64,000 nucleotides of DNA. Source: Streptomyces soli (GTDB taxonomy: Bacteria; Actinomycetota; Actinomycetes; Streptomycetales; Streptomycetaceae). Positions 44,446 through 57,916 of the stretch are shown piece after piece (within the stretch, counting starts at the first letter, position 1; each line of letters begins with the position of its first letter). The stretch is taken from positions 62,001 through 126,000 of the forward strand of contig NZ_RJVR01000189.1 of NCBI RefSeq assembly GCF_003999195.1. Reading direction: 5' to 3'. Made by a program: the position numbers and the translations under genes. The notes beneath the pieces were generated by a model. It was not told the DNA's origin and made no database searches. It saw only the letters and a list, made by a program, of their open reading frames with translations.

Positions 44446-46095
44446 TCACGAATCGGCGAGAAATGCGCGCCATCCGCCGTAGGTTGTGATGTCCATTGCC
44501 TTGCCGACCGCCTCCGGCTCGCACAGGAACCCGGGGGCCGTCGTGCCGTCCGCAAGCCCGACCCTGCCCAGCGCCATGGGGCGCGGCAGCGCGGCCAGTA
44601 GCGCGCCCAGCCCCTCGGTCGGCAGCTCCCAGACCTCGGCCTCGATGGCCGCGCCGCCGTCCGGGACCCGGACCAGGCCCGGCTTCGGCGGCTCCGTGTC
44701 GAGGGCGTACAGCCGGTACTCGGGCGCGGTACTGGTCGTGGCCACCAGCCGGGCCCCCAAGCCGAGCAGCTGGGGGTTGAGGGGCTGCCCCGACAGGTGG
44801 GCGCCGACGACCACGAGCTTCGCGGTCGGCTTGAGCAGCCGGGCGATGGCCGCCGTACGGTCGTCCGTGAAGCCACGGCCGAGCACCATCACCCCGAAGG
44901 GCAGCCCGTCCACCTCGCCGGCCGGGACGGCGATCCCGCACATGCCCAGCAGATTGGTGGAGTTGGTGAATCTGCCAAGGCGTGCGTTCGCGCCCAGCGG
45001 ATCGGCCGCCACCTCGGCCAGAGTGGGATGGCCGGGGGTCGTGGGCAGCAGCAGCGCATCCGCGTCACTCAGCTCCGCCATGGCCTGCGCACGCAGTGCG
45101 GCCAGTTTGTCCATGTCGGCGAACAGTCGGTGCGCCGGGAGGTCCCGGGCGGCCGTGATGATGCGGGCGACGGTGGGGTCGAGGGCCGGGTCGTCGGCAT
45201 GCTTGTCGATAAAGCCACCGACAGCGGTGTAGCGCTCCGCCACGAACGCGCCCTCATACAGCAGTTCAGCCGCCGCCGAGAACGCCGTGAGCTCAACACT
45301 GCGCAGCTCCGCGCCCGCCTCGGCGAGCCGCTGCGCGGCCGCTTCGAAAGCTTCCGCCCACCCCTTGTCCAGCTCACCGAGCTGATCCGTGGGCGGCACC
45401 GCGACCCGCCACGGCCCGGGCCGGCGGGCCGGCGGCTCCCCGGTCCGCCCTGCGGGCGAGGCGAGGAATCCGAAGGCGCGTTCCGCTTCCCGGATCGTAC
45501 GGGCGAACACCGTCACGCAGTCCACGCTCGCGCAGGCCGGCACAACCCCGGTCGGCGGGACCAGCCCGTACGTCGGCTTGATGCCGACGATTCCGTTGAA
45601 CGCCGCCGGCACGCGCCCCGAGCCCGCGGTGTCCGTCCCCAGCGCGATATCGGCGATCCCGAGCGCCACAGCAACGGCCGACCCACTGCTGCTGCCCCCG
45701 CTGACCCGCGCCGGGTCATACGCGTTGCGCACGGCGCCGTACGGGCTCCTGGTGCCGACCAGGCCCGTGGCGAACTGGTCCAGGTTCGTACTTCCCAGGA
45801 CGACGGCGCCCGCCTGCTTCAGCCGCGCCACGGCCGGGGCATCCCGCTCCGGCTCGTACGCGTACGAAGGGCACCCGGCGGTCGTGGGCAAGCCGGCGAT
45901 GTCGATGTTCCCCTTCACCGCAGCGGTCGTCCCGGCCAGCGGGAGGTGTTCCCCTGCGGCCAGGCGCGCGTCGATCGCGCGGGCCTCCGCCTCCACCTCG
46001 GCCTGCGGCCTGAGCCCGATCCAGATCTCGGGCCGGTCCACCTCGGCGATCTTCGTGTACGCGGCGCGTACGCGGCTGAGTGCAGGTCCGGTCAT
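44446..46095 (-). CDS. atzF: allophanate hydrolase
   Basis: 549-residue amidase that splits allophanate to ammonia and carbon dioxide. Amidase-signature triad elements are present: the lysine in TTAAVKGNIDIAG, the cis-serine in VSGGSSSGSAVAVALG and the nucleophile serine in GTDTAGSGRVPAAFNGIVGIKPTYG. The C-terminal domain (about 425-549) is complete, ending in GGWRAF. ATG at 46095 follows AAGGAGACG; an upstream in-frame ATG is weaker. It comes after the carboxylase gene on the same strand, but with an unusual 291-base gap that may hold its own promoter. Confidence 0.94.
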   Translation of the reverse strand: MTGPALSRVRAAYTKIAEVDRPEIWIGLRPQAEVEAEARAIDARLAAGEHLPLAGTTAAVKGNIDIAGLPTTAGCPSYAYEPERDAPAVARLKQAGAVVLGSTNLDQFATGLVGTRSPYGAVRNAYDPARVSGGSSSGSAVAVALGIADIALGTDTAGSGRVPAAFNGIVGIKPTYGLVPPTGVVPACASVDCVTVFARTIREAERAFGFLASPAGRTGEPPARRPGPWRVAVPPTDQLGELDKGWAEAFEAAAQRLAEAGAELRSVELTAFSAAAELLYEGAFVAERYTAVGGFIDKHADDPALDPTVARIITAARDLPAHRLFADMDKLAALRAQAMAELSDADALLLPTTPGHPTLAEVAADPLGANARLGRFTNSTNLLGMCGIAVPAGEVDGLPFGVMVLGRGFTDDRTAAIARLLKPTAKLVVVGAHLSGQPLNPQLLGLGARLVATTSTAPEYRLYALDTEPPKPGLVRVPDGGAAIEAEVWELPTEGLGALLAALPRPMALGRVGLADGTTAPGFLCEPEAVGKAMDITTYGGWRAFLADS

Positions 46096-46386
46096 CGCGT
46101 GCGTCTCCTTGTGGTGGTGGGGGCTGCCGGTCCGTGCCGGGACGAGGAGGTCAGGAACACCCACCGACCGGCAGCCGCCGTCGGCGCGGAGGGGGTGGGG
46201 CGGGGCGGGTCCGTAGAGACACTAAAGCGACGCAGAACGTCCGGTTCCGAGCTGGCGAGGAACAGAGTGGGCGACCACGCTGCTCCGGCCGCAAATCGAC
46301 TGCAGCGCCGTCTCATAGGACCCACCCCGACACGCCCCGACCCACCCACGAACCGAAGCCCCGCGCACCCCCACCCAGGGAGCCGC
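46096..46386. other. gap between carboxylase and allophanate hydrolase genes
   Basis: 291 bases with no credible gene. It is rich in GGGGT/CCCCAC repeats, for example GGGGTGGGGCGGGGCGGGTC (46194-46213) facing GACCCACCCCGACACGCCCC (46320-46339). Together they can form a long imperfect stem around a 106-base loop. No known riboswitch core was recognised. Confidence 0.4.
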
Positions 46387-49300
46387 TCACCCCGGCCCCA
46401 GCGTGAGCAACGCCGTACCGGCCGACACCTGATCGCCGGGGGCGACAAGAACCTCGGCGACGACGCCATCGGCGGGGGCCGAGACCGCGGACTCCATCTT
46501 CATGGCCTCAAGGGCGAGCAGCTTCTGCCCGGCCCGAACCCGCTCACCCGGACGCACAGCGACCTGCCAGACGCTGGCAGCGAATTCGGCCTCCACGGTG
46601 CACCCACCCTCCGGCACAGCGACGTCGGCCGTGGCCGGTGCGGGAGCAACAGCCGCCTCCGCACGGGCGAACTCGCCCGCCGCCTCCCACGCATCCCGCT
46701 CGGCCCCGAACGCGGCACCCTGACGGGCGCGAAACGCGGCAATCGAGTCCGCGTTCTCGGCAAGGAAACGCTGGTGCTCGGCGAGCGAGAACTCGCCGTC
46801 CTCGACCCGCAGGTGAAGCCGACCCGCAGCCATGTCGGCCCGCATATCGAGGAGTTCGTCGGCCTCGACGGGATACCACTTGATGCGGTCGAAGAACCGC
46901 AGCAGCCACGGCTGCCTGAGATGGGAGCCCGACCAGCTCGACCACACCTGGACCGTACGGCCCACGAACTGGTACCCCCCGGGCCCCTCCATCCCGTAAA
47001 CGCAGAGGTACGCACCCCCGATGCCCACCGAATTCTCGGCGGTCCACGTCCGCGCCGGGTTGTACTTCGTCGTGACGAGCCGGTGCCGGGGGTCGAGCGG
47101 CGTCGCAACCGGCGCGCCCAGGTACACGTCACCCAGCCCCAGCACCAGATACTCCGCGTCGAAGACCGTCCGGTAGACATCGTCCACGGACTCGAGGCCG
47201 TTGACACGGCGGATGAACTCGATGTTCCACGGGCACCATGGCGCGTCGTCCCGTACCCCCGCCATGTACCGGGCGATGGCCTCCCGCGTGGCCGGGTCGT
47301 CCCAGGACAGCGGCAGGTGCACCGTGCGGCTGGGCACGCGGAGCGCGTCCGTGGGGGGTAGCTGGGCCTCGGCCTCCTGGGCGAGGGCGAGGAGCTTGGC
47401 GGTCGGCAGGATGTCGGGGTCGACGTGGACCTGCAGGGACCGTATGCCGGGGGTGAGGTCGACGACGCCGGGGAGGGCGTCGGCAGTGAGGCGTTCGGCG
47501 AGGGCGTGCACCCGCATGCGCAGGGCGAGGTCGAGCTGCATGGGGCCGTACTCGATGAGCAGGTTGTCGTCGCCGCTGCGGCGGTACGTGACCGAGGGGC
47601 GGCCGTCGGTCTCGGGGAGGCGCCCGAGGACGCCGCCGTCCCGGAGAGCGGGCCGCGAGGCCACCGGCTGTACGGCGGGCGCGAGGCGGAGCGCCGCCGC
47701 CGCGTCCTCCGTCACGGGGACGAAGCGCACCGTGTCGCCGGGCCGGAACTGGCCGAGCTTCCAGCGCTGGCCGGTGACGATGGTGGCGGGGCAGACGAAG
47801 CCGCCGAGCGAGGGCCCGTCCGGCCCGAGCAGGACCGGCATGTCGCCGGTGTAGTCGACAGCGCCCACCGAATAGGGCGTGTCGTGGATGTTGGAGGGGT
47901 GAAGTCCCGCCTCGCCGCCGTCCGTTCGTGCCCAGCGCGGCTTGGGGCCGACCAGCCGCACCCCGGTCCGCGCCGAGTTGAAGTGGACCTTCCACTCGGC
48001 GGCGTAGAACTCCTGGATGTCCTCCTCGGTGAAGAACTCGGGCGCGGCGTGCGGCCCTTCGACCGCCCCGACCAGCCACTCGGCACCGAAAGAAGGCCGC
48101 CGGCCCTCGGGCACCGGCGTGCCCACCACCGTAGACCCGCCGTGCAGTACGTCACCCGCCCGCAGCGTCCGCCCGCCGTGGCCGCCGAAGCGCCCCAGCG
48201 TGAACGTGGCGGCGCTGCCGAGGAAGTCCGGCACGTCCAGGCCGCCGTCCGCGAAGAGGACGTACGTACGCAGGCCGTGCCCCCCGGGCGCCGGAACATC
48301 CAGCAACGCCCCCGCAGGGACGGTGAACGGCTCCCACTGGGGGACCGGCACCCCGTCGACCGTGACGGCGGCGGGGGCGCCGGTGACGCAGACAGTGGTG
48401 GCCCGGGTGAACCGCAACTGCGGCCCCTGGAGGGTGCATTCGAGCCCGGGGGCGCCCTCGTCATTGCCCAGGGCCTCGTTGCCGAGGCGGAAGGACAGGT
48501 CGTCCATCGGGCCGCAGGGCGGCACGCCGACGTGCCAGAGGCCGGTGCGGCCGGGCCAGTCCTGGACGGTGGTGAGGGTGCCCGCGCGGACGACCTCGAT
48601 GCGCGGGGTGGGGTCGGTGATCCCGTCGAGGGAGGCGGTGGTGTGGCCGGCGGCCCGGAGCGCGGGCGAGGCGGCGGCCGCGCGCAGCAGGCCGAGGTTG
48701 GTCTCGATGCCGTCGACGCGGGTCTCGGCGAGGGCCCGGGCCAGCCGGTCGAGGGCGTCGGCGCGGTCGGTGCCGTGCGCGATGATCTTGGCCAGCATCG
48801 GGTCGTACGAGGTCGTCACCTCGGTGCCCGTCTCGATCCAGGCGTCGACCCGCACGCCCTCGCCCTCCGGGAAGCGCACCCGCGTCAGCAGCCCCGCGCT
48901 CGGCCGGTGGCCCCGGCTGGGGTCCTCGGCGTAGACGCGGGCCTCGACGGCGTGACCGCGCGGGGCCTCCGGCGTGATGTCGAAGACCTCGCCGCGCGCG
49001 AGCCGCAGCATCCACTCCACCAGGTCTATGCCGTACGTCGCCTCGGTGACCGGATGCTCGACCTGCAGACGGGTGTTGACCTCCAGGAAGTACGCCTCGC
49101 CGCGCGCGGCGTCGTAGACGTACTCCACCGTGCCCGCCGACCGGTAGTCGACCGAGGCGCACAACGAGCGAGCGGTGTCAGCGAGTTGGCGGCGTACGGA
49201 GTCGGGGAGGCCGGGGGCGGGGGCTTCTTCCACCACCTTCTGGTTGCGGCGTTGCAGGGAGCAGTCGCGGTCGCCGAGGGTGACGACGCGGCCGTGGCCG

Positions 49301-49992
49301 TCGCCGAAGACCTGGACCTCGACATGGCGGGCGCGCTCCACCAGCCGTTCCAGGAACACCCTCCCTCCTTGCCCGCCCTCGGGCAGGAGGGGCCCAGCTC
49401 CGGAGAAGGACGCGGCGGCGACCCGTTGCACGCGGTCCCAGGACTCGGCGAGGTCGGCGGGGGAGTGGCAGGCCTGCATGCCGATGCCGCCGCCCCCGCC
49501 GGTGGCCTTGAGCATGACGGGGTAGCCGAGCGCGTCGGCTGCGGCGCGCGCCGCGTCCAGGCCGTCCAGCAGCCCGGTGCCGGGCAGCAGCGGCACCCCG
49601 GCGGCCTCGGCGGCGGCGCGGGCGGTGTGCTTGGCGCCGAAGAGCTCGAGCTGCTGCGGGGTCGGGCCGACGAAGACCAGGCCCTCGGCCTGGCAGCGGC
49701 GCGCGAAGTCCGCGTCCTCGGACAGGAATCCGTACCCCGGGTGGATCGCGCCGGCGCCCGTGCGGCGGGCGGCCTCCAGCACGGCGTCGACGTCCAGGTA
49801 GCTGGCCTTGGCCGGGGCGGGCCCGAGCCGTACGGCCTCGTCGGCGAGGCGGACATGGGGGGCGGAGCGGTCGGGGTCGGAGTAGACCGCGACGGTACGA
49901 AGGCCGAGGCGGCGGGCGGTGCGGATGATGCGGGCGGCGATCTCGCCGCGGTTGGCGACCAGGAGGGTGTCAAAGCCCGGCGTACGGCTCAT
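46387..49992 (-). CDS. biotin-dependent urea/guanidine carboxylase
   Basis: 1201-residue biotin enzyme with the full urea carboxylase plan: biotin carboxylase (about 8-450; VANRGEIAARIIRTARRLG, KATGGGGGIGMQ, EVNTRLQVEHPVTE), KipA/KipI-type carboxyltransferase domains (about 475-1080; TVQDWPGRTGLWHVGVPPCGPMD, HPSNIHDTPYSVGAVDYTGD) and a C-terminal biotinyl domain with LEAMKMES, K1165 being the biotinylated lysine. It carboxylates urea, or guanidine, to feed allophanate hydrolase. ATG at 49992 overlaps the DUF1989 gene stop by 4 bases. The DUF1989 pair points to guanidine as substrate. Confidence 0.94.
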   Translation of the reverse strand: MSRTPGFDTLLVANRGEIAARIIRTARRLGLRTVAVYSDPDRSAPHVRLADEAVRLGPAPAKASYLDVDAVLEAARRTGAGAIHPGYGFLSEDADFARRCQAEGLVFVGPTPQQLELFGAKHTARAAAEAAGVPLLPGTGLLDGLDAARAAADALGYPVMLKATGGGGGIGMQACHSPADLAESWDRVQRVAAASFSGAGPLLPEGGQGGRVFLERLVERARHVEVQVFGDGHGRVVTLGDRDCSLQRRNQKVVEEAPAPGLPDSVRRQLADTARSLCASVDYRSAGTVEYVYDAARGEAYFLEVNTRLQVEHPVTEATYGIDLVEWMLRLARGEVFDITPEAPRGHAVEARVYAEDPSRGHRPSAGLLTRVRFPEGEGVRVDAWIETGTEVTTSYDPMLAKIIAHGTDRADALDRLARALAETRVDGIETNLGLLRAAAASPALRAAGHTTASLDGITDPTPRIEVVRAGTLTTVQDWPGRTGLWHVGVPPCGPMDDLSFRLGNEALGNDEGAPGLECTLQGPQLRFTRATTVCVTGAPAAVTVDGVPVPQWEPFTVPAGALLDVPAPGGHGLRTYVLFADGGLDVPDFLGSAATFTLGRFGGHGGRTLRAGDVLHGGSTVVGTPVPEGRRPSFGAEWLVGAVEGPHAAPEFFTEEDIQEFYAAEWKVHFNSARTGVRLVGPKPRWARTDGGEAGLHPSNIHDTPYSVGAVDYTGDMPVLLGPDGPSLGGFVCPATIVTGQRWKLGQFRPGDTVRFVPVTEDAAAALRLAPAVQPVASRPALRDGGVLGRLPETDGRPSVTYRRSGDDNLLIEYGPMQLDLALRMRVHALAERLTADALPGVVDLTPGIRSLQVHVDPDILPTAKLLALAQEAEAQLPPTDALRVPSRTVHLPLSWDDPATREAIARYMAGVRDDAPWCPWNIEFIRRVNGLESVDDVYRTVFDAEYLVLGLGDVYLGAPVATPLDPRHRLVTTKYNPARTWTAENSVGIGGAYLCVYGMEGPGGYQFVGRTVQVWSSWSGSHLRQPWLLRFFDRIKWYPVEADELLDMRADMAAGRLHLRVEDGEFSLAEHQRFLAENADSIAAFRARQGAAFGAERDAWEAAGEFARAEAAVAPAPATADVAVPEGGCTVEAEFAASVWQVAVRPGERVRAGQKLLALEAMKMESAVSAPADGVVAEVLVAPGDQVSAGTALLTLGPG

Positions 49993-50597
49993 GCGGCGCC
50001 CTCGGTGATCGTCATGCGTACGGGGGTGGGGTCGAAGCCGTTGCAGGGGTTGTTGATCTGCGGGCAGTTGGAGACCAGGACGAGGACGTCGGTCTCGGCG
50101 CGCAGCACGACCTTCAGGCCGGGGGAGGAGATGCCGTCGACGATGCCGAGGGTGCCGTCCTCCTCGACGGGGACGTTCATGTACCAGTTGATGTTGCTGA
50201 CCAGGTCGCGCTTGCCGAGGCCGTGCTTGGCGCCCTCGGCGAGGAAGTTCTCCACGCAGGCGTGCTGGGACCAGGTGTGGTGGCCGTAGCGCAGAGTGTT
50301 GGATTCCTTGGAGCAGGCGCCGCCGACGGTGTCGTGGCGTCCGCAGGTGTCCTCGACGACGGTCATGAGCGGGGTGTGCTCGTTGGAGAGCAGCACGCTG
50401 CCGGTGGTCAGGAAGATGTTGCCCTGCGCGTGGATGGTGTCGGGCGCGCTGTAGCGGACGGCGGTGTCGTGGGCGTCGTACAGCAGGCAGTCCACGGCCT
50501 GGTTGCCGCCGAGGTCGGTGATGGCGAGGTGCTCACCCTTGCTGACGACCGCGGACCACGGCGCGCGGGCCGGAACGACGGTGCTGGTCACCTTCAT
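49989..50597 (-). CDS. DUF1989 protein, urea amidolyase-associated type 2 (carboxyguanidine deiminase subunit candidate)
   Basis: 202-residue DUF1989 family protein. Visible marks are KGEHLAITDLGGNQAVDCLLYDA, FLTTGSVLLSNEHTPLMTV, EDTCGRHDTVGGACS, NINWYMNVPVEEDG and VLVLVSNCPQINNPCNGFDPTP, with several conserved histidines and cysteines that may bind metal. Work on these DUF1989 pairs has reassigned them as the two subunits of carboxyguanidine deiminase, acting between guanidine carboxylase and allophanate hydrolase. ATG at 50597 overlaps the previous gene by 4 bases; its end overlaps the carboxylase by 4, so all three are coupled. Confidence 0.9.
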   Translation of the reverse strand: MKVTSTVVPARAPWSAVVSKGEHLAITDLGGNQAVDCLLYDAHDTAVRYSAPDTIHAQGNIFLTTGSVLLSNEHTPLMTVVEDTCGRHDTVGGACSKESNTLRYGHHTWSQHACVENFLAEGAKHGLGKRDLVSNINWYMNVPVEEDGTLGIVDGISSPGLKVVLRAETDVLVLVSNCPQINNPCNGFDPTPVRMTITEGAA

Positions 50598-51430
50598 TGG
50601 ATCCCCCTGGCGGCGAGGTGGTCGTCGGTGTTGAGAAAGGCGCGGCGGCCCTCGGGCGTGGCGTCCCAGAGCCGGTCGCCGGGCGCTGTGGGCGCGGCCC
50701 GCCAGGCCAGCACCTCCAGCGGCGTGCACACGTAGTCGGGGCGCGGGTCCACCGGGTGCGGGACGTTGGCGATCAGTACGGTCAGCGGCTGCTCGGCCCG
50801 CAGGGTCACCGACGCCCCCGGCCCGGCGGATCCGGTGAACTCGAGCTTGCCGTCGGCCACGACCCGTACGCCCTGGAAGAAAGACAGGGACGGTGGCAGA
50901 TCGCGTGGCTCCAGCCCGTTCTTCAGCGCGGCAAGTTTCAGCAGCTCGCGCCCGGCGGGGGAGGGGCCCTGCGGTGAACCGTCGCCGTAGCGCTGGGTGT
51001 TGCGTACGGCGGTGGAGGTGCCGCACAGCGCGTCGTGGCGGGAGCTGGTGTCGGCGACGACGGAGGCGAGGACGCGGCCCTGGTCGGACAGGAGCAGATG
51101 GCCTTCGCCGACGTACGCGTTCCAGAGGACCTTGACGGTGTCGGCGGCGTTGAGCCGCTCCCAGGGGCGGCCGTCCGCGTAGAGCAGCACGTGGGCGCAG
51201 GCGTCGCCGGCCAGGTCGGTGAGGCGCAGCTCGGTGCCGCGGGCGATGACTTTGTGCGTGTAGTTGCCGCCGGCCACGGTCTCGGCCCAGACGATGCGGT
51301 CCGGCGCGACGCCGGCCGGGGGGTTGGGCCAGGCGCCGGCGGGGAGAGTGGGCATGGTGTCGACCTGTGTGCCCTCCTGGGCGCGGGCATGGTCGCGGGC
51401 CCCGTATGTCGAGCCTGTCCCTGTCGCCAC
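50594..51430 (-). CDS. DUF1989 protein, urea amidolyase-associated type 1 (carboxyguanidine deiminase subunit candidate)
   Basis: 278-residue DUF1989 protein, first gene of the operon. It shows GGNYTHKVIARGTELRLTDLAGDACAHVLLY, RLNAADTVKVLWNAY, HLLLSDQGRVLASVVADTSSRHDALCGTS, FFQGVRVVADGKLEF and IANVPHPVDPRPDYVCTPLEVLAW. It pairs with the next gene, probably as a heteromeric deiminase. GTG at 51430 is preferred over GTG 51439 because GGAGG lies 8 bases upstream of it. A 22-bp palindrome sits 26 bases before this start, with the divergent TetR gene beyond. Confidence 0.88.
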   Translation of the reverse strand: MATGTGSTYGARDHARAQEGTQVDTMPTLPAGAWPNPPAGVAPDRIVWAETVAGGNYTHKVIARGTELRLTDLAGDACAHVLLYADGRPWERLNAADTVKVLWNAYVGEGHLLLSDQGRVLASVVADTSSRHDALCGTSTAVRNTQRYGDGSPQGPSPAGRELLKLAALKNGLEPRDLPPSLSFFQGVRVVADGKLEFTGSAGPGASVTLRAEQPLTVLIANVPHPVDPRPDYVCTPLEVLAWRAAPTAPGDRLWDATPEGRRAFLNTDDHLAARGIQ

Positions 51431-51456
51431 GGCTTCCACCTCCGGTTCGACGGTCT

Positions 51457-52580: not shown

Positions 52581-52914
52581 GCGGCGTCCTGTTCGGGGTC
52601 GTCACCGTCGGCTGTGCACGTATCGCTGTACTCGCCCTCCTGGTCGCTGCCCGCAGCGGCGGCGGGCACAGTCTTCCAGCGTGATCATGGGACGTAGACA
52701 CACATGATCGCTGGGACCGTGCCTGTTTCACACCTCCGCAGAGTGGGCCAGAGCCGCAGACCGGACGACCTCGCTCATAGCGACTTCATGCCGAAGCCCT
52801 CAAAGAGATACCAGGCGGCAGACATGGTGATCTTCGTCGCCGTGGACCTCGACTCAGATCGAAGCGGGAAAGGCGTCGCGTGAACGCATTGTTTCCGACA
52901 TCGGCCGCTGAGAC
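52581..52914. other. intergenic and decayed sequence before the transporter remnant
   Basis: 334 bases. The left part in minus orientation may be the last codons of a recombinase gene (acidic stretch ending EQDAA). The right part has no readable gene; a frame from 52789 reads MPKPSKRYQAADMVIFVAVD and stops. Base composition is more mixed than in the flanking core genes. Confidence 0.35.
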
Positions 52915-53583
52915 TTGCTCATGGGCGTGGCCTTCGGATTCTCGTTCGTCCTCATCCTGGTGTCCTCCATGTCCCTGATCACCGCAGATATGGCGGCGGG
53001 CCTCATCGCGATCTTGGAACGCCACATGACTCCGCTGCAGTATCTTCGATTCATGTGCCTGGGCTGGACCGGAAACATCGTCGGCGCATTCGTCTTCGTC
53101 GGTATCGCTGCCTGCGCCGGTGGCCCCTACACGTCGGTTCCGTTCCTCGCGCACGCCTACACGGTTGGTTTGGCCAAGAGCGGAACGTCGAATTTCTCGA
53201 CATTCCTGCTCGCGCTACTCTGCACCTGGTTCCTGCAGACCACCATGTTCATGTTCTTCAAAGCGCGGACTGACCTTGCCCGTATGTCATTCGCTTTCTA
53301 CGGTCCGTTCGCCTTCGTCATCGGCATGACGGAGCACGTCATCGCCAACGTGGGGTTCATCGGCTTCCCTCTACTGCTCCAGTTCGCCCACTCGTCCGGC
53401 GCCCTCCCGGGTGTCGCCACCAGCCTTTCCTGGGGCATGGGTGCCCACGGGCTGCTGCGCAACCTCCTCTGGGCGACGCTCGGCAACCTGGTCGGCGGCA
53501 CGGTTTTCGTGGCGGGTCCGTTCTGGCTGATCGCCGCCACGCGAAACCGGGGTACCGGCGTCGCCGCGACCCGCAGTGCCTGA
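52915..53583 (+). pseudogene. formate/nitrite transporter family protein, N-terminally truncated
   Basis: 222 residues matching the FNT channel family from the second membrane span onward: LMGVAFGFSFVLILVSSMSL, RFMCLGWTGNIVGAFVFVG, then MSFAFYGPFAFVIGMTEHVIANVGFIGFPLLLQ with the conserved central histidine, and NLLWATLGNLVGGTVFVAGPFWLIAA. Full-length members have about 270 residues; the first span and the N-terminal helix are missing, and a TGA lies directly before the TTG used as start. The product is probably non-functional, though the remaining frame is intact. A large palindrome follows the stop. Confidence 0.75.
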
Positions 53584-53690: not shown

Positions 53691-53895
53691 GACGAAATCG
53701 CCGCGAGTGTTTGTTTTCTCTGACATTCCGCTTGTGTGTCGCACATGTAAATCGGAAAGTCTGCGAATTTTTTTCGCAGATCCGCGTAACGGCAGGACAC
53801 GTGCCGAGAACTACCGCCGTGCTCATCCAATTCGGGAACGCGCCCCAGGCGCCGCCCGCGCCGACGTGCTCGTCGGCCACACGGAAGGACTCACC
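53691..53895. promoter_or_regulatory. promoter region of the OsmC/sigma-factor operon with A/T-rich hairpin
   Basis: An unusually A/T-rich stretch for this genome. TCTGCGAA (53760-53767), five T, TTCGCAGA (53773-53780) is a perfect inverted repeat about 115 bases before the OsmC start. ATG at 53896 has GAAGGA upstream. The repeat may be an operator or an early terminator. No ECF-type promoter could be assigned with confidence. Confidence 0.4.
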
Positions 53896-54432
53896 ATGTC
53901 TAACACCATCAACGCTCTCGCCGAGATCGACGCGGACGGCTTGGCGCGGCTGTCGGAGAACGCCAAGGCGGATCCTTCGGTGGGAAAGAAGACACTCAAG
54001 GCCACCACCACTTGCGAAGGCGGTTTCCGCAACCTCACCCAGATCCGCACGCTGACGCCGGTTCTCGTGTCGGAGCCCTGCCAACTTCTCGGTGACGACG
54101 CCGCACCCAACCCCTCTGAGATGGCACTGGCCGCACTCGGTTCCTGCATCTCCGTGGGGTTGCTCGCCAACGCGACGTCCCGAGGCGTCACGCTGAGCAA
54201 GATCGAGGTCGCTATGGAGGGCGACATCGACATCTCCGCGGTCTGGGGTGTCGGCGACACCCCAGAGAGCAAGGTGCCGGGGTTCACCGCCGTTCGCTGC
54301 GCCATCACGCTCGCGGGCGACGCCGACGCGGCCACGCTCCAGGAGGTCAAGGAGAACGCGATGGTGTGGTCTCCGGTGGTCAACACGTTCGCTCGCCCCG
54401 TCCAGATGAGTTCGACGCTCACCATCGGCTGA
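53896..54432 (+). CDS. OsmC family protein
   Basis: 178-residue OsmC/Ohr-like protein. It has KATTTCEGGFRNLTQIR, LVSEPCQLLGDDAAPNPSEMALAALGSCISVGLLANAT and the C-terminal strand region MVWSPVVNTFARPVQMSSTL. OsmC proteins reduce organic peroxides with two cysteines, or handle sulfane sulfur; candidate thiols are C77 (in EPCQ) and the cysteine in GSCI. ATG at 53896 has a good ribosome site. It begins a plus-strand run of coupled genes and is 43 bases from the truncated flavoprotein gene. Confidence 0.88.
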   Translation: MSNTINALAEIDADGLARLSENAKADPSVGKKTLKATTTCEGGFRNLTQIRTLTPVLVSEPCQLLGDDAAPNPSEMALAALGSCISVGLLANATSRGVTLSKIEVAMEGDIDISAVWGVGDTPESKVPGFTAVRCAITLAGDADAATLQEVKENAMVWSPVVNTFARPVQMSSTLTIG

Positions 54433-54475
54433 CTGGGGCACCCCGCGCCTTCCCTCAAGCCTCTCGGAACGGTGT

Positions 54476-55327
54476 ATGAGCTCGGCGTTCACCACCTGGG
54501 CCCACCGGATGACCATCGAGTACCTCACCGTCGCCGCCACCCGCTATTCGGAGAGCATGCTCGCTCAGCTGCGTTCCGGTCAGACACCCGGGATCACCGG
54601 GATGGCGTCGTCGTTCCGTGATCTCGCGGGCTGCGGCACGCTCGAGATCACCGCGACTGAAGACGGTGACGGCTACCTGCTGAACGGGCCGATCCGGTGG
54701 GCGTCCAACCTCTACGCCGACGCGTTGCTCGTCACCGGGGCGCGCACCGACAAGGGCGACAAGATCATTGTCGCGCTGCCCCTCGCCGCTGGCGGGATCA
54801 AGGTCGGTAAGTCCTTCTCCCTTCTGGCACTGGGCAGCACCGCCTCATTGTTTCTGTCCCTGACCAATGTCCGGATCGGCACCGAGCAGGTGCTGACGAG
54901 AGACTTCGACGCCTTCCTGACTTCGGTGCGGCCCACATTCATGGTGCTGCAGACGGCGATGTGCCTCGGGTTGGCCCGCACCTGTCTGGCCAACGCGCGG
55001 GCGTCCCTGGTTGGCGTCAACTCGGTGTTCACCACCGAGGTGGAATCGATGGTGGGCAAGATGGCGCTGGTCAACGTCGCGATGATGAAGGCGGCGCACA
55101 GTGTCGGGGGACTCGTCCCGGCGACCCGCGCGGAGCTGCTGGCCATGCGTCTGGCCGCTGCCGAGGTGGCCACCGGTGCGGCGACGCTCGAGGCGAAGAC
55201 TGCCGGAGGCAAGGGCTATGCCAGCAGCTCGGGTACGAGCCGTCGCTATCGCGAAGCCGCCTTCATCCCCGTGCAATCCCCCTCGGAGTCGCAGCTCCGC
55301 TGGGAGTTGGCCTCATGCGGGCAATGA
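54476..55327 (+). pseudogene. acyl-CoA dehydrogenase-like flavoprotein (SfnB/DszC type), N-terminally truncated
   Basis: 283 residues with the middle and C-terminal domains of the acyl-CoA dehydrogenase fold. There is a beta domain with LEITATEDGDGYLLNGPIRWASNLYADALLVTGAR and a C-terminal helical bundle, MVLQTAMCLGLARTCLANARASL and GGKGYASSSGTSRRYREAAFIPVQSPSESQLRWEL. Full-length members have about 380-400 residues; the N-terminal helical domain (about 100 residues) is absent, and the frame opens in the middle of RCMSSAFTTWAHRM. Such proteins with a flavin reductase act as FMNH2-dependent monooxygenases of organosulfur compounds. The reading frame is intact and its stop overlaps the sigma-factor gene, so it may still be translated. 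Confidence 0.7.
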
Positions 55328-55986
55328 TCGGTGAACCGGCCGAGATGAGTGCGGGGTCGTCGGACGACGCTGAACTTGCCGGGGACCGGCTGCTGCTCGC
55401 GGAGCAGATCGCGTCGCTGTATCCGGGCATGCTCCGCTTCGCCCGCACCATCGTGCCGGCTGCCCTCGCGGAGGACGTGGTACAGGAGACATGGATCGCC
55501 GTTCTCAAAGTGGCGAACACGTTCGAGGGCCGCTCGACTCTGCGTACCTGGATCTACGCGGTGCTGCGGAACAAGGCGCGTCAGGCGCTCGGAAGCGAGA
55601 CCCGACGCCGCACCGTCGAGACCGAGGAGGCGACGGACGAAGGCGGTCCGCTCGCCGGCCGCCTGCATCCGCCCGGTCATCCAGACGCGGGTCACTGGTC
55701 GGTGCCGCCGTCCGCTCGTTTCATACCCGAAGAGCGCGCGGTCACTGCGGAGCTTCGGCACAAGGTGCTCGAGGCGCTGGACAAACTGCCGCAGAGGCAG
55801 CGGAGCGTGGTGCTGCTGCGCGATGTGGAGGGTTTCAGTGCCGAGGAGGTGTGCGATCTCCTCGTCCTCGATCCGGGCAATCAGCGCATTCTGCTGCACC
55901 GCGGCCGAGCGAAGCTCCGCGCCTACATTGAGTGTTACCAGTTCGGGCGAGGATGCCCTGATAGTGAATCAGGGAGTTGGTTGTGA
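55315..55986 (+). CDS. ECF-family RNA polymerase sigma factor
   Basis: 223-residue extracytoplasmic-function sigma factor. Region 2 is SLYPGMLRFARTIVPAALAEDVVQETWIAVLKVANTFEGRSTLRTWIYAVLRNKARQ (about 40-97) and region 4 is VLEALDKLPQRQRSVVLLRDVEGFSAEEVCDLLVLDPGNQRILLHRGRAKLRAYIE. The linker is long and glycine/proline-rich. ATG at 55315 has GGGAG 8 bases upstream; ATG 55324 overlapping the previous stop (ATGA) is an alternative. Its stop overlaps the anti-sigma start (GTGA). It lies inside the run OsmC, flavoprotein, sigma, anti-sigma, flavin reductase and probably controls it. Confidence 0.92.
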   Translation: MRAMIGEPAEMSAGSSDDAELAGDRLLLAEQIASLYPGMLRFARTIVPAALAEDVVQETWIAVLKVANTFEGRSTLRTWIYAVLRNKARQALGSETRRRTVETEEATDEGGPLAGRLHPPGHPDAGHWSVPPSARFIPEERAVTAELRHKVLEALDKLPQRQRSVVLLRDVEGFSAEEVCDLLVLDPGNQRILLHRGRAKLRAYIECYQFGRGCPDSESGSWL

Positions 55987-56267
55987 AGATCGCTGACAAT
56001 TTCGACGCGGCCGGCGCTGCTGCTATCGACTGCATCGACTTCCTTCCCCTCGTCGACGACCTGCTCGAAATCGACGACGAGGGATGGGACGCGCAGGTCG
56101 TGCGCCATCTCGAGGAATGTCCACCGTGCCGGATCTTCCTTGAGCAGCTCCAAGACCTGCGACGGATGCTGCGCGCGCAGGACGACGAAGCGCTTGCCCT
56201 GTCCGACCCCCGTATCAGGACGCTACTGACCCAGGCCTGTTTCCCCCGAAAGGAAGATCCTTCGTGA
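55983..56267 (+). CDS. zinc-binding anti-sigma factor
   Basis: 94-residue protein with an acidic N terminus (CIDFLPLVDDLLEIDDEGWD) and the anti-sigma zinc motif VVRHLEECPPCRIFL (H-x3-C-x2-C, about 39-53), followed by a helix (EQLQDLRRMLRAQ). No membrane span, so a soluble ZAS-type anti-sigma that may respond to redox changes by losing zinc. GTG at 55983 is preferred to TTG 55977: GGGAG is 6-7 bases away and it overlaps the sigma stop. Its own stop overlaps the flavin reductase start. Translational coupling fixes the sigma:anti-sigma ratio. Confidence 0.88.
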   Translation: MKIADNFDAAGAAAIDCIDFLPLVDDLLEIDDEGWDAQVVRHLEECPPCRIFLEQLQDLRRMLRAQDDEALALSDPRIRTLLTQACFPRKEDPS

Positions 56268-56827
56268 ACAGCACCGTTGTCGCCGCGGCCGAGATTCTTG
56301 ACGACGCCCTCACCGGTGAGTGGACCCGCGGAGACCAGGTCGACCCGAACTCGCTGCGGAAAACAGCCGGTTCCTTTCCCAGCGGCGTGACCATCATCAC
56401 CACTACGTCGGGCGGCAATCCGATCGGGCTGACGATCAGTTCGTTTGCCTCGGTGTCACTCGATCCACCGTTGCTGCTGGCGTGCGTCGCGCGTACCGCC
56501 AGCAGTCTGCCCGCCTTCCGGGTCGGCGGACGGATGGGTGTCAACGTGCTCGCCAACGACCAGGCATGGCTGGCCAAGCGCTTCGCCAGCCGCCAGGAGG
56601 ATCGGTTCGCCGGCGTCGAGTTGCAGCCCGGCTCCCACGACGTCCCGCTGCTGGAGGGCGTCGCCGCGTGGCTGAACTGCCACATCGCGCGCATCTACGA
56701 CGGTGGCGACCACGTCATCCTCCTCGCGCGAGTGCACACCGTCCACCGCTCCGGCGCACGGCCATTGCTGTACCACTCGGGGAAGATGCACGACTGGGCG
56801 ATAGCGGCCTTGGAGACGACCACCTGA
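56264..56827 (+). CDS. flavin reductase-like protein (HpaC/two-component monooxygenase reductase type)
   Basis: 187-residue flavin reductase domain protein. SLRKTAGSFPSGVTIITTTSGGNPIGLTISSFASVSLDPPLLLACVARTASSLPAF is the flavin-binding core, and DDxxIARIYDGGDHVILLARV-type residues with RSGARPLLYHSGKMHDW complete the fold. It supplies reduced FMN or FAD to a partner oxygenase, most likely the acyl-CoA dehydrogenase-like protein encoded two genes upstream. GTG at 56264 follows GAAAGGAAG and overlaps the anti-sigma stop (GTGA). Last intact gene of the operon; a rhodanese fragment follows. Confidence 0.9.
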   Translation: MNSTVVAAAEILDDALTGEWTRGDQVDPNSLRKTAGSFPSGVTIITTTSGGNPIGLTISSFASVSLDPPLLLACVARTASSLPAFRVGGRMGVNVLANDQAWLAKRFASRQEDRFAGVELQPGSHDVPLLEGVAAWLNCHIARIYDGGDHVILLARVHTVHRSGARPLLYHSGKMHDWAIAALETTT

Positions 56828-56946: not shown

Positions 56947-57230
56947 CGGAGCCCTGTCTTCGACCCGCAGATCACCGTTGACGAACTGACCGGTCCGCGA
57001 CTTCGCGACGCCCTCGCCCGCGGTGTACGCCTCCTCGACACGCGCGATCCGGAGACGTTCGCGGCCGGGCACCTGCGCGGAGCGGTCAACGTCGGTCTCG
57101 ACGGGCGTTTCGCGGAAACAGCGGGCATGGTGCTCCGGCACGGTGACCAGATCATCGTCATCACGACCGACGGGCGTGCGCGGGAATCCGCCCTGCGGCT
57201 GGCCCGGATCGGTATCGACACGGTACAGCG
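56947..57230 (+). pseudogene. rhodanese domain fragment
   Basis: The frame opened after TAG at 56944 reads FDPQITVDELTGPRLRDALA, then RGVRLLDTRDPETFAAGHLRGAVNVGLDGRF and IIVITTDGRARESALRLARIGIDTV. This is the rhodanese domain found after the beta-lactamase fold in persulfide dioxygenase-type proteins, in which the active-site cysteine is often replaced. No start codon with ribosome site and no N-terminal part, so it is a broken gene. It fits the sulfur theme of the flanking genes. Confidence 0.6.
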
Positions 57231-57445: not shown

Positions 57446-57916
57446 ATGCACGTCGCAGAGTTCTCGCCCGTCGAGGTCAGGATCGAGGACCGGACCGACC
57501 CGCTCAACCCACACGTGCGAACTGCACGTCTGCTCTTCACGGACGATCACGGGCAACCCATGCGGCGGTCGACATGGTCACGCATCTGGGGGCGCATCCG
57601 TGCGGATGCCGACAAGCTTCTCGTGGCGAGGGGGACAGACGTGCGTGTCCCGAAGAAGTGAACGCTTCACAGTCTCCGGGACTTCTACGCCACGACGTTG
57701 ATCACGAGGCGGGAGAACGTGAAGTTGGTTCAGGTCCGCCTCGGGCACTCGGAGCCGTCGATCACTCTCGACAAGTACGTCGGGTTCTGGCCGACCGAGG
57801 AGGACACGACCGCGGCGGCTATCGAATCGGTTCTGGGAGAGCCGGAGCGAGTTCTTCAGCCGAGTGCACGCGTTGTGCACTCCGCCACCGGTATAGGGCC
57901 CCGGCGCCTATGGTGA
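57446..57916 (+). pseudogene. tyrosine-type integrase, C-terminal part with an in-frame stop
   Basis: The catalytic half of a phage/ICE-type tyrosine recombinase. It begins MHVAEFSPVEVRIEDRTDPL, continues LLFTDDHGQPMRRSTWSRIW, and after an in-frame TGA at 57659-57661 goes on in the same frame as TLHSLRDFYATTLITRRENV, VRLGHSEPSITLDKYVGFWP and EDTTAAAIESVLG. The H-x-x-R box, LGHS motif and catalytic tyrosine region are kept. The N-terminal half is missing. Its last 98 bases overlap the convergent permease gene. A remnant of the element that brought in the island. Confidence 0.75.

Follow-up and report, generated by a model that had tools for sequence, protein, structure and literature searches.

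An apparently damaged Streptomyces copy of a conserved actinobacterial operon that joins OsmC and a flavoprotein to an extracytoplasmic function sigma factor and a zinc anti-sigma, with a possible role in cyanate or thiocyanate use

Why should an alternative sigma factor and its candidate anti-sigma be encoded between a flavoprotein and a flavin reductase? The question is raised by a stretch of 64,000 nucleotides from Streptomyces soli (contig NZ_RJVR01000189.1, positions 62,001 to 126,000; hereafter the window), part of a 128 kb contig in a 9.4 Mb draft genome (99.66% complete, 412 contigs). In it, genes for an OsmC-family protein, a flavoprotein, an extracytoplasmic function (ECF) sigma factor, an anti-sigma and a flavin reductase follow each other on the plus strand. 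An initial annotation had read them as an organosulfur-type monooxygenase operon under direct control of the sigma pair. Our best explanation, to which we give a probability of about 55%, is that the intact operon is self-regulated and serves cyanate or thiocyanate use and that the copy in the window has decayed and was probably acquired.

Gene calls and Pfam matches bear out the five genes in the order and at the positions that the annotation had given. They begin with osmC (53896..54432; 178 aa, frame intact; PF02566, 5.1e-18) and continue with an N-terminally truncated flavoprotein of predicted acyl-CoA-dehydrogenase fold (54455..55327), the ECF sigma factor (55315..55986; sigma70 regions 2 and 4, PF04542 and PF08281), the 94-residue zinc anti-sigma (55983..56267; Cys17, His42, Cys46, Cys49) and an HpaC-like flavin reductase of 187 aa (56264..56827; PF01613, 9.4e-41). 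The last four genes had also been described as overlapping. A GTGA is indeed common to the stop and start codons of sigma and anti-sigma, and again to those of anti-sigma and reductase (4-base overlaps), but flavoprotein and sigma overlap, by 13 bases, only if the sigma starts at the ATG at 55315 and not if it starts at 55345.

To find the same order elsewhere, we searched genome contigs with the flavoprotein, fetched the best 80 of 87 confirmed relatives and mapped the window genes onto them by tblastn. The 80 loci are mostly from Mycobacterium, and the rest include Corynebacterium, Mycobacteroides, Rhodococcus, Nesterenkonia, Amycolatopsis, Nocardia, Brachybacterium and Streptosporangium. 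OsmC, flavoprotein, sigma and anti-sigma stand in this order in 58 of the 80, and the flavin reductase joins them in six of the 58 (L037, L038, L040, L041, L061 and L070), so that the arrangement is not unique to the strain; because it recurs in several genera, it is far beyond chance. In 30 of the 58 sigma-bearing loci, as against none of the 22 sigma-less ones, OsmC and flavoprotein are separated by the cyanase gene cynS, and a formate/nitrite-type (FNT) transporter gene follows downstream in 44 of the 58. Cyanase was confirmed by Pfam in both loci tested (L037, 5279-5719; L041, 5315-5785), each with PF02560 and PF21291 above cut-off. The closest copy, L037 from Rhodococcus sp. HNM0569 (hereafter the Rhodococcus copy), has a flavoprotein 79% identical over its residues 71-360 and is the sister of the window (Shimodaira-Hasegawa-like approximate likelihood ratio 99) in a flavoprotein tree of the 80 loci and the window made by a quick method. 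After its reductase come an NMT1-type ATP-binding cassette (ABC) transporter (PF13379), a rhodanese domain and a longer metallo-beta-lactamase-like/rhodanese-like protein. As judged from sequence, then, the window holds a copy of a conserved actinobacterial operon with the order OsmC, cyanase in some copies, flavoprotein, ECF sigma, zinc anti-sigma, flavin reductase in some copies, and a transporter of FNT or ABC type.

Closer to home the operon is scarce. The sigma has a match at E up to 1e-25 in only one of 34 other genomes of the genus of the window, at 43% identity, and the flavoprotein, at E up to 1e-40, occurs in two of 394 genomes of the family, namely its own and one other (45%), so that the operon appears rare in the family and was probably acquired. 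The assembly of that other genome (G010) has 7% contamination, and its flavoprotein gene follows an SCO4226-like gene and precedes genes that read, by eye, as those of an ABC transporter. This is the pattern of the second of two cluster types: one is linked to OsmC, and an outgroup has an SCO4226/DUF4242-like gene before the flavoprotein and, where read, ABC genes after it.

What switches the operon on? The sigma factor, 71% identical to that of the Rhodococcus copy, is an ECF member with both Pfam regions above cut-off and a TIGR02937 score of 88.6 bits (cut-off 42.9). The anti-sigma follows it in all 58 loci and in the window, and has the zinc anti-sigma signature, Hx3Cx2C with an upstream ligand; C17, H42, C46 and C49 are present in every one of the 59 anti-sigmas, those of the 58 loci and that of the window. 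Against the short zf-HC2 profile it scores 18 bits, below the cut-off of 22.2, with the ligands present. By a crude hydropathy test it has no membrane-like stretch, the highest 19-residue Kyte-Doolittle mean being 1.31 in the window and at most 1.58 among the 59, with 2.27 for an FNT control. The four ligands are presumably an RsrA-like set. The annotation had suggested that thiol or peroxide stress is sensed at this site, which is plausible. According to an excerpt of PMC7406223, most soluble anti-sigmas of this class have the zinc motif, but the site may be structural, so the motif alone is no proof of redox sensing, and we put the chance that this anti-sigma senses redox or thiol state at about even.

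A sign of self-regulation lies before osmC. Sigma-bearing loci have CGTCAC-N17/18-CACTAA upstream of this gene, which in the window and the Rhodococcus copy reads CGTAAC-N17-GAACTA; in the window the putative sigma-factor promoter, CGTAAC-N17-GAACTAC, spans 53785..53814 on the plus strand, and the same motif precedes osmC in the Rhodococcus copy. The count covered the 72 OsmC-bearing loci of the 80 and the window (59 sigma-bearing and 14 sigma-less copies), leaving out the 8 loci without OsmC. When each copy is scored against whichever of the two forms fits it better, 47 of the 59 sigma-bearing copies match exactly, 10 have one mismatch, one has two (L111) and one has three (L038). One mismatch at most is thus found in 57 of 59 sigma-bearing copies versus 0 of 14 sigma-less OsmC-linked copies, which have three to five, and in 2 of 1460 mononucleotide shuffles. 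The form of the window has a single exact site in its own genome, so that the pair probably drives only its own operon. Among 12 other genomes, CGTCAC-N16-18-GCACTAA was present in 10, each time with the osmC site, and there were two further sites altogether. Taken together, the sigma-linked motif and the four conserved zinc ligands make it very probable, as had been proposed, that the sigma pair controls the flavoprotein operon, and we are similarly confident that the sigma drives its own operon. We also noted that in the genome of L041 (L144/L150) the osmC site is preceded, at a distance of 366 bases, by a second exact motif in the same orientation, which is one of the two further sites, and that the operon of Mycobacterium lepraemurium (L111), the copy with two promoter mismatches, seems to be decaying, its flavoprotein and sigma matches being split.

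The sigma-less loci suggest what may have preceded this control. A TetR gene of one type is found in 10 of the 22 sigma-less loci (three of them OsmC-linked; two of the ten were the sources of the queries) versus none of the 58 sigma-bearing ones, and in two of the TetR-bearing loci the palindrome TAGACAGAnTGGTCTGTCTA stands before osmC. Since the TetR gene occurs in sigma-less loci only, the sigma pair seems to have taken the place of a TetR regulator. The flavoprotein tree requires 4 changes for the presence of sigma and 12 for that of cynS. Two relatives of the sigma pair stand in other company: in Nonomuraea gerenzanensis (L006, 4941-10542) a sigma relative and a small zinc-type anti-sigma lie, as read by eye, directly before ergothioneine-biosynthesis-like genes egtA-D, and on the Mycobacterium kansasii plasmid pMK12478 (L004) a segment of about 5.3 kb contains two sigma/zf-HC2 pairs, with ssuD, redoxin and haloalkane dehalogenase genes nearby, one of these sigmas being 47% identical to that of the window.

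Which reaction would such a switch govern? The window flavoprotein alone gave no match in a Pfam search and only weak NCBIfam matches, SfnB first, with 27.3 bits (30.2 for the Rhodococcus copy) where the cut-off is 430.9; DszC gave 24.6 bits where the cut-off is 850. An AlphaFold model of the Rhodococcus flavoprotein (mean predicted local distance difference test 92) has an acyl-CoA dehydrogenase fold by prediction, its ten best structural matches having Z of 38.7-39.3 and root-mean-square deviations of 2.5-2.9 over 342-348 residues. The best 50 of 516 and the best 50 of 527 structural matches belong to the acyl-CoA-dehydrogenase superfamily, including acyl-CoA oxidases and ColB1; DszC is not among these best-50 rows, which excludes nothing, and appears in the sequence search. 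Residue 344 of the model aligns with residue 367 of rat short-chain acyl-CoA dehydrogenase, whose catalytic glutamate we take to be E368. The next residue is Ser345, invariant in 28 of the 80 flavoproteins chosen for diversity, and the catalytic glutamate is thus absent. With an invariant serine at this position the flavoprotein is, on this alignment, not an ordinary acyl-CoA dehydrogenase. The reductase has a Flavin_Reduct domain (PF01613, 139.9 bits, cut-off 27), all 8 listed NCBIfam equivalogs staying below cut-off. In OsmC, Cys84 is found in all 73 aligned copies and Cys135 in 61 of them, a pair that is presumably catalytic and is kept in the window.

The best clue to the substrate is the link to cyanase. 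In the intact operon, cyanase together with an FNT transporter, or with the NMT1-type ABC transporter of the Rhodococcus copy, points to cyanate or thiocyanate, although whether the chemistry is indeed of this kind could in our estimate go either way. A survey of cyanases outside the operon covered 18 of the 28 sigma-bearing loci without an in-operon cynS, 2 of the 30 with one and 6 of the 22 sigma-less loci; all 18 sigma-bearing genomes without cynS in the operon encode a cyanase outside the fetched locus. Among 198 genomes of one genus, cyanase is found in 41 of 41 with the flavoprotein at E up to 1e-115 versus 107 of 157 others (Fisher 1.2e-6, kinship uncontrolled), the threshold having been set at a gap in the match list and the 41 genomes taken as OsmC-type by score alone. 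In at least four genomes (G340, G116, G895 and G952) the one cyanase found lies beside the flavoprotein.

The organosulfur chemistry first suggested for the flavoprotein has points of its own. The operon could scavenge sulfur, with an SfnB/DszC-like, reduced-flavin (FMNH2) monooxygenase for a sulfone, sulfonate or thioether that the transporter imports, and with cyanase as a passenger for nitrogen supply. The weak SfnB and DszC profile matches, the NMT1-like binding protein of the Rhodococcus copy (PF13379; its match to an SsuA model is below cut-off) and the ABC genes beside the copies of C. halotolerans (by eye) and C. occultum all agree with this. A 28% relative also lies three genes after cysK on pANL, which an excerpt of PMC8049743 describes as a plasmid with many sulfur-related genes, and the part of PMC8557817 available to us reports that an ECF sigma downstream of the tau cluster of R. 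qingshengii IGTS8 is raised in dibenzothiophene culture. Yet such a role would leave cynS and FNT unexplained, the family cut-offs are missed by an order of magnitude, and no sulfonate monooxygenase gene was recognised in the operon. We therefore hold sulfur scavenging to be unlikely, though worth keeping in mind; of the first reading of the flavoprotein only a weak family resemblance stands, while cyanase, FNT and the NMT1-type transporter point to cyanate or thiocyanate. A role in stress defence seems to us rather improbable. Here OsmC and flavoprotein would detoxify a thiol oxidant or electrophile (organic hydroperoxide, hypothiocyanite or isothiocyanate) sensed at the zinc site, and cyanase would clear the cyanate released. 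It would suit the presence of OsmC with its two conserved cysteines in 58 of 58 sigma-bearing loci and the four zinc ligands, which resemble those of RsrA, but an anion transporter (FNT in 44 of 58) suggests uptake and not defence, and the few motif sites per genome are unlike the large thiol-stress regulons of the SigR type.

Several observations weigh against a self-regulated operon for cyanate or thiocyanate. The promoter consensus was derived by eye from the very loci on which it was counted, mostly mycobacterial, and the form of the window and the Rhodococcus copy was picked after viewing, so it is the contrast with sigma-less loci and the genome-wide counts that carry weight; L038, with its three mismatches, fits the motif poorly, and reversed-pattern controls turned up 2 sites in the genome of the window and 4 across the 12 other genomes. 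Nor are relatives of the sigma (E up to 1e-25) confined to the operon: they occur in 50 of the 394 genomes searched within the class, and in G018 and Nonomuraea the relative lies next to what reads by eye as a small zf-HC2-like gene but is otherwise surrounded by different genes. The reductase is absent within reach of the search from 52 of the 58 sigma-bearing loci. As to the substrate, it is suggested by gene neighbourhood: cynS is not in the operon in 28 of 58 sigma-bearing and in 14 of 14 sigma-less OsmC-linked loci. Cyanase is present in 148 of the 198 genomes anyway, including all 8 whose sole flavoprotein match is distant (E 1e-62 to 1e-71). Four of the genomes searched that have a sigma-less, OsmC-linked locus (L080, L085, L076 and L099; Nocardia, Brachybacterium and two Corynebacterium) have no cyanase, so the flavoprotein cannot always need one. 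Distant relatives of the flavoprotein, finally, adjoin ABC transporter genes without OsmC or cyanase, which fits organosulfur better.

Does the operon work in this strain? Homology to the intact Rhodococcus flavoprotein starts at residue 71, at window position 54455, and the first ~70 residues are gone; the open frame (54476-55327) begins at an ATG that corresponds to residue 78 of the intact protein, leaving a gap of 43 bases after osmC. Compared with the Rhodococcus copy, everything from directly after osmC to codon 70 of the flavoprotein, cynS included, is missing, and no cyanase match was found within the window. We read the gap as the site of a deletion, with the scar at 54433..54455. In the modelled relative the truncation would cost four N-terminal helices (6-12, 18-32, 40-48 and 63-76), and the lost part holds the near-invariant A28, D32, R39, G54 and L63 (alignment of 78 of the 80 flavoproteins, selected by length). 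Upstream, the FNT transporter piece (52915..53583, plus strand; PF01226, 7.7e-29, profile positions 55-240 of 240) has no counterpart to some 75 N-terminal residues, with an in-frame TGA directly upstream at 52909-52911. It aligns with residues 76-297 of the FNT of L041 at 55%, and it falls short of a full-length channel whereas the L041 protein covers nearly the whole profile. Selenocysteine at this TGA was considered and rejected, the relative having an ordinary residue there and the upstream part no homology. Downstream, the rhodanese piece (56956..57225, plus strand; PF00581, 1.1e-8) corresponds at 51% to residues 247-337 of the longer Rhodococcus protein, which has a metallo-beta-lactamase-like front (NCBIfam matches below cut-off). 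Both pieces, in which the annotation had seen a sign of sulfur or small-anion metabolism, are remnants.

We are highly confident that this operon is a damaged copy. Because cynS and the flavoprotein N terminus are gone, the oxidation step should be dead and the copy, as far as its sequence tells, a relic as an oxygenase operon, even if the OsmC, sigma, anti-sigma and reductase frames and the promoter are still present. The annotation had named an order unique to the strain and a truncation that makes the operon a relic as what would speak against it; the truncation does so, while the order is not unique. That the flavoprotein is still an active enzyme from the ATG at 54476 and the operon works as it stands we consider extremely improbable. 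Its frame is open and starts at a Met common to relatives, the other four frames are intact, and the ratio of non-synonymous to synonymous change against the Rhodococcus copy is low (flavoprotein 0.15/0.85), which mostly reflects the time before the deletion. Against this stand the lost helices and near-invariant residues, the fragmentary FNT and rhodanese genes and a second flavoprotein copy, on contig C72, that is broken too. A misassembly in the 412-contig draft as the cause of the deletion is very unlikely as well: two related and confusable OsmC and flavoprotein copies in a draft genome would favour one, but the FNT and rhodanese remnants represent independent decay at this very spot, the OsmC copies differ enough in DNA (89% identity) to make chimaeras less likely, and none of three cyanases elsewhere in the genome lies in such an operon.

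The second OsmC, on contig C72, is 87% identical and has no promoter motif; the flavoprotein fragment on this contig has frameshifts, lies distant from the OsmC and may have the start of a sigma gene, a few codons long, after it. Each of the two sets gives the impression of a relic. That contig C72 might be a circular continuation with OsmC-cynS-flavoprotein was considered and rejected (no exact end overlap of 15-199 bases and no cyanase across the ends). Between its OsmC and broken flavoprotein (L131, 672-12611) it encodes formate dehydrogenase subunits, an NrfD-like protein, SelA, SelB and SelD, the alpha subunit being split in the gene call in a way compatible with a putative selenocysteine codon; a common theme with the operon was not upheld, as the formate dehydrogenase and SelABD genes gave no match (E up to 1e-8) in the 80 loci with flanks of up to 6 kb. 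The three cyanase genes of the genome (contigs C53, C338 and C340) have none of the operon genes around them, and that on C340 is preceded, as read by eye, by carbonic-anhydrase-like and LysR-like genes. In the window, directly left of the operon on the minus strand (44446-51439), are genes for a urea carboxylase-like protein, an allophanate hydrolase-like amidase and a DUF1989 protein, another pathway for small nitrogen compounds. Directly right of the rhodanese remnant, a short frame (57698-57916) resembles the C-terminal part of an integrase (PHROG 216, E 0.0085; no match in a Pfam search) and could have been left behind by the element that carried the operon in; a tRNA gene search of the window found none, and hence no tRNA-borne integration site.

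How would an intact copy of a self-regulated cyanate or thiocyanate operon work? We suppose that the anti-sigma would keep the sigma bound as long as its Cys/His zinc site stays intact; oxidised thiols, reactive sulfur or an electrophile derived from the substrate may be what disturbs this site. Once released, the sigma would start transcription at a single dedicated promoter upstream of osmC and in this way turn on its own operon and itself. The transporter would import a small anion for oxidation by the flavoprotein, to which the reductase would supply reduced flavin; cyanase would convert cyanate to ammonia and CO2, and OsmC could handle peroxide or sulfur by-products. Thiocyanate and cyanate are the likeliest set of substrates, the thiocyanate step being conjectural. 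A bolder version, an aerobic intracellular flavin route from thiocyanate to cyanate and sulfur and then to cyanase, switched by a nearly one-promoter sigma pair that replaced TetR, is doubtful in our opinion. If true, it would amount to a second cyanate pathway, one without copper, distributed among many non-tuberculous mycobacteria.

An ECF sigma with a zinc anti-sigma and a cyanase with FNT are each known already, but their combination here seems undescribed. In the open-licence PubMed Central literature we found no publication on cyanase, ECF sigma, flavin reductase and OsmC together, in line with the first impression that no described system has this order. A flavin route for thiocyanate is not described in the titles and abstract beginnings of the literature matches listed, and OsmC goes unmentioned in the 12 listed of 100 matches on sulfane sulfur. 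As a type, the operon has turned out better than the initial annotation described it, and as a working operon in this strain worse. An enzyme group without an assigned reaction is joined to a sigma pair with few targets, which makes a closed, testable switch with promoter, sensor and enzymes in one operon. Control of these enzymes seems to lie with TetR in some relatives and with the sigma pair in others, which makes the operon an example of one regulator replacing another. Should thiocyanate or cyanate prove to be the substrate, a flavin route would be added to the copper- or cobalt-enzyme pathways, and many environmental mycobacteria would be concerned.

From a comparative point of view the sigma pair is closest in layout to the RsrA/SigR type, with an ECF sigma followed by a small anti-sigma that has no membrane-like stretch, the pattern Cys...His-x3-Cys-x2-Cys and overlapping start and stop codons. 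Yet the anti-sigma reaches only 17.1 bits against the RsrA model (cut-off 62.5) and the sigma 59.3 against the actinobacterial SigH model (cut-off 251.55), and SigR governs a large thiol-stress regulon whereas few motif sites per genome are found here. With SfnB and DszC the flavoprotein shares the predicted acyl-CoA dehydrogenase fold and, in some copies, a reductase beside it, but the profile scores are far below cut-off and the gene surroundings, cyanase and OsmC included, are different. The cyanate gene sets of cyanobacteria and nitrifiers (cynS with cynABD or FNT) have cyanase with the same two kinds of transporter, the ABC transporter of the Rhodococcus copy being NMT1-like and only putatively CynABD; for nitrifiers, an excerpt of PMC10753782 gives FNT or CynABD as the two transporters beside cynS and calls the cyanate role of FNT uncertain. 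In our operon a flavoprotein, OsmC and an ECF/anti-sigma pair are added, and cynS is not in all copies. The thiocyanate dehydrogenase of Thioalkalivibrio, as outlined in the part of PMC5744179 available to us, is a known enzyme of the cyanate pathway, in which thiocyanate gives cyanate and sulfur, and shares this idea with the operon; it is a periplasmic copper protein encoded beside a two-component system, whereas the enzyme proposed here would be of flavin type, probably cytoplasmic, and encoded with an ECF sigma.

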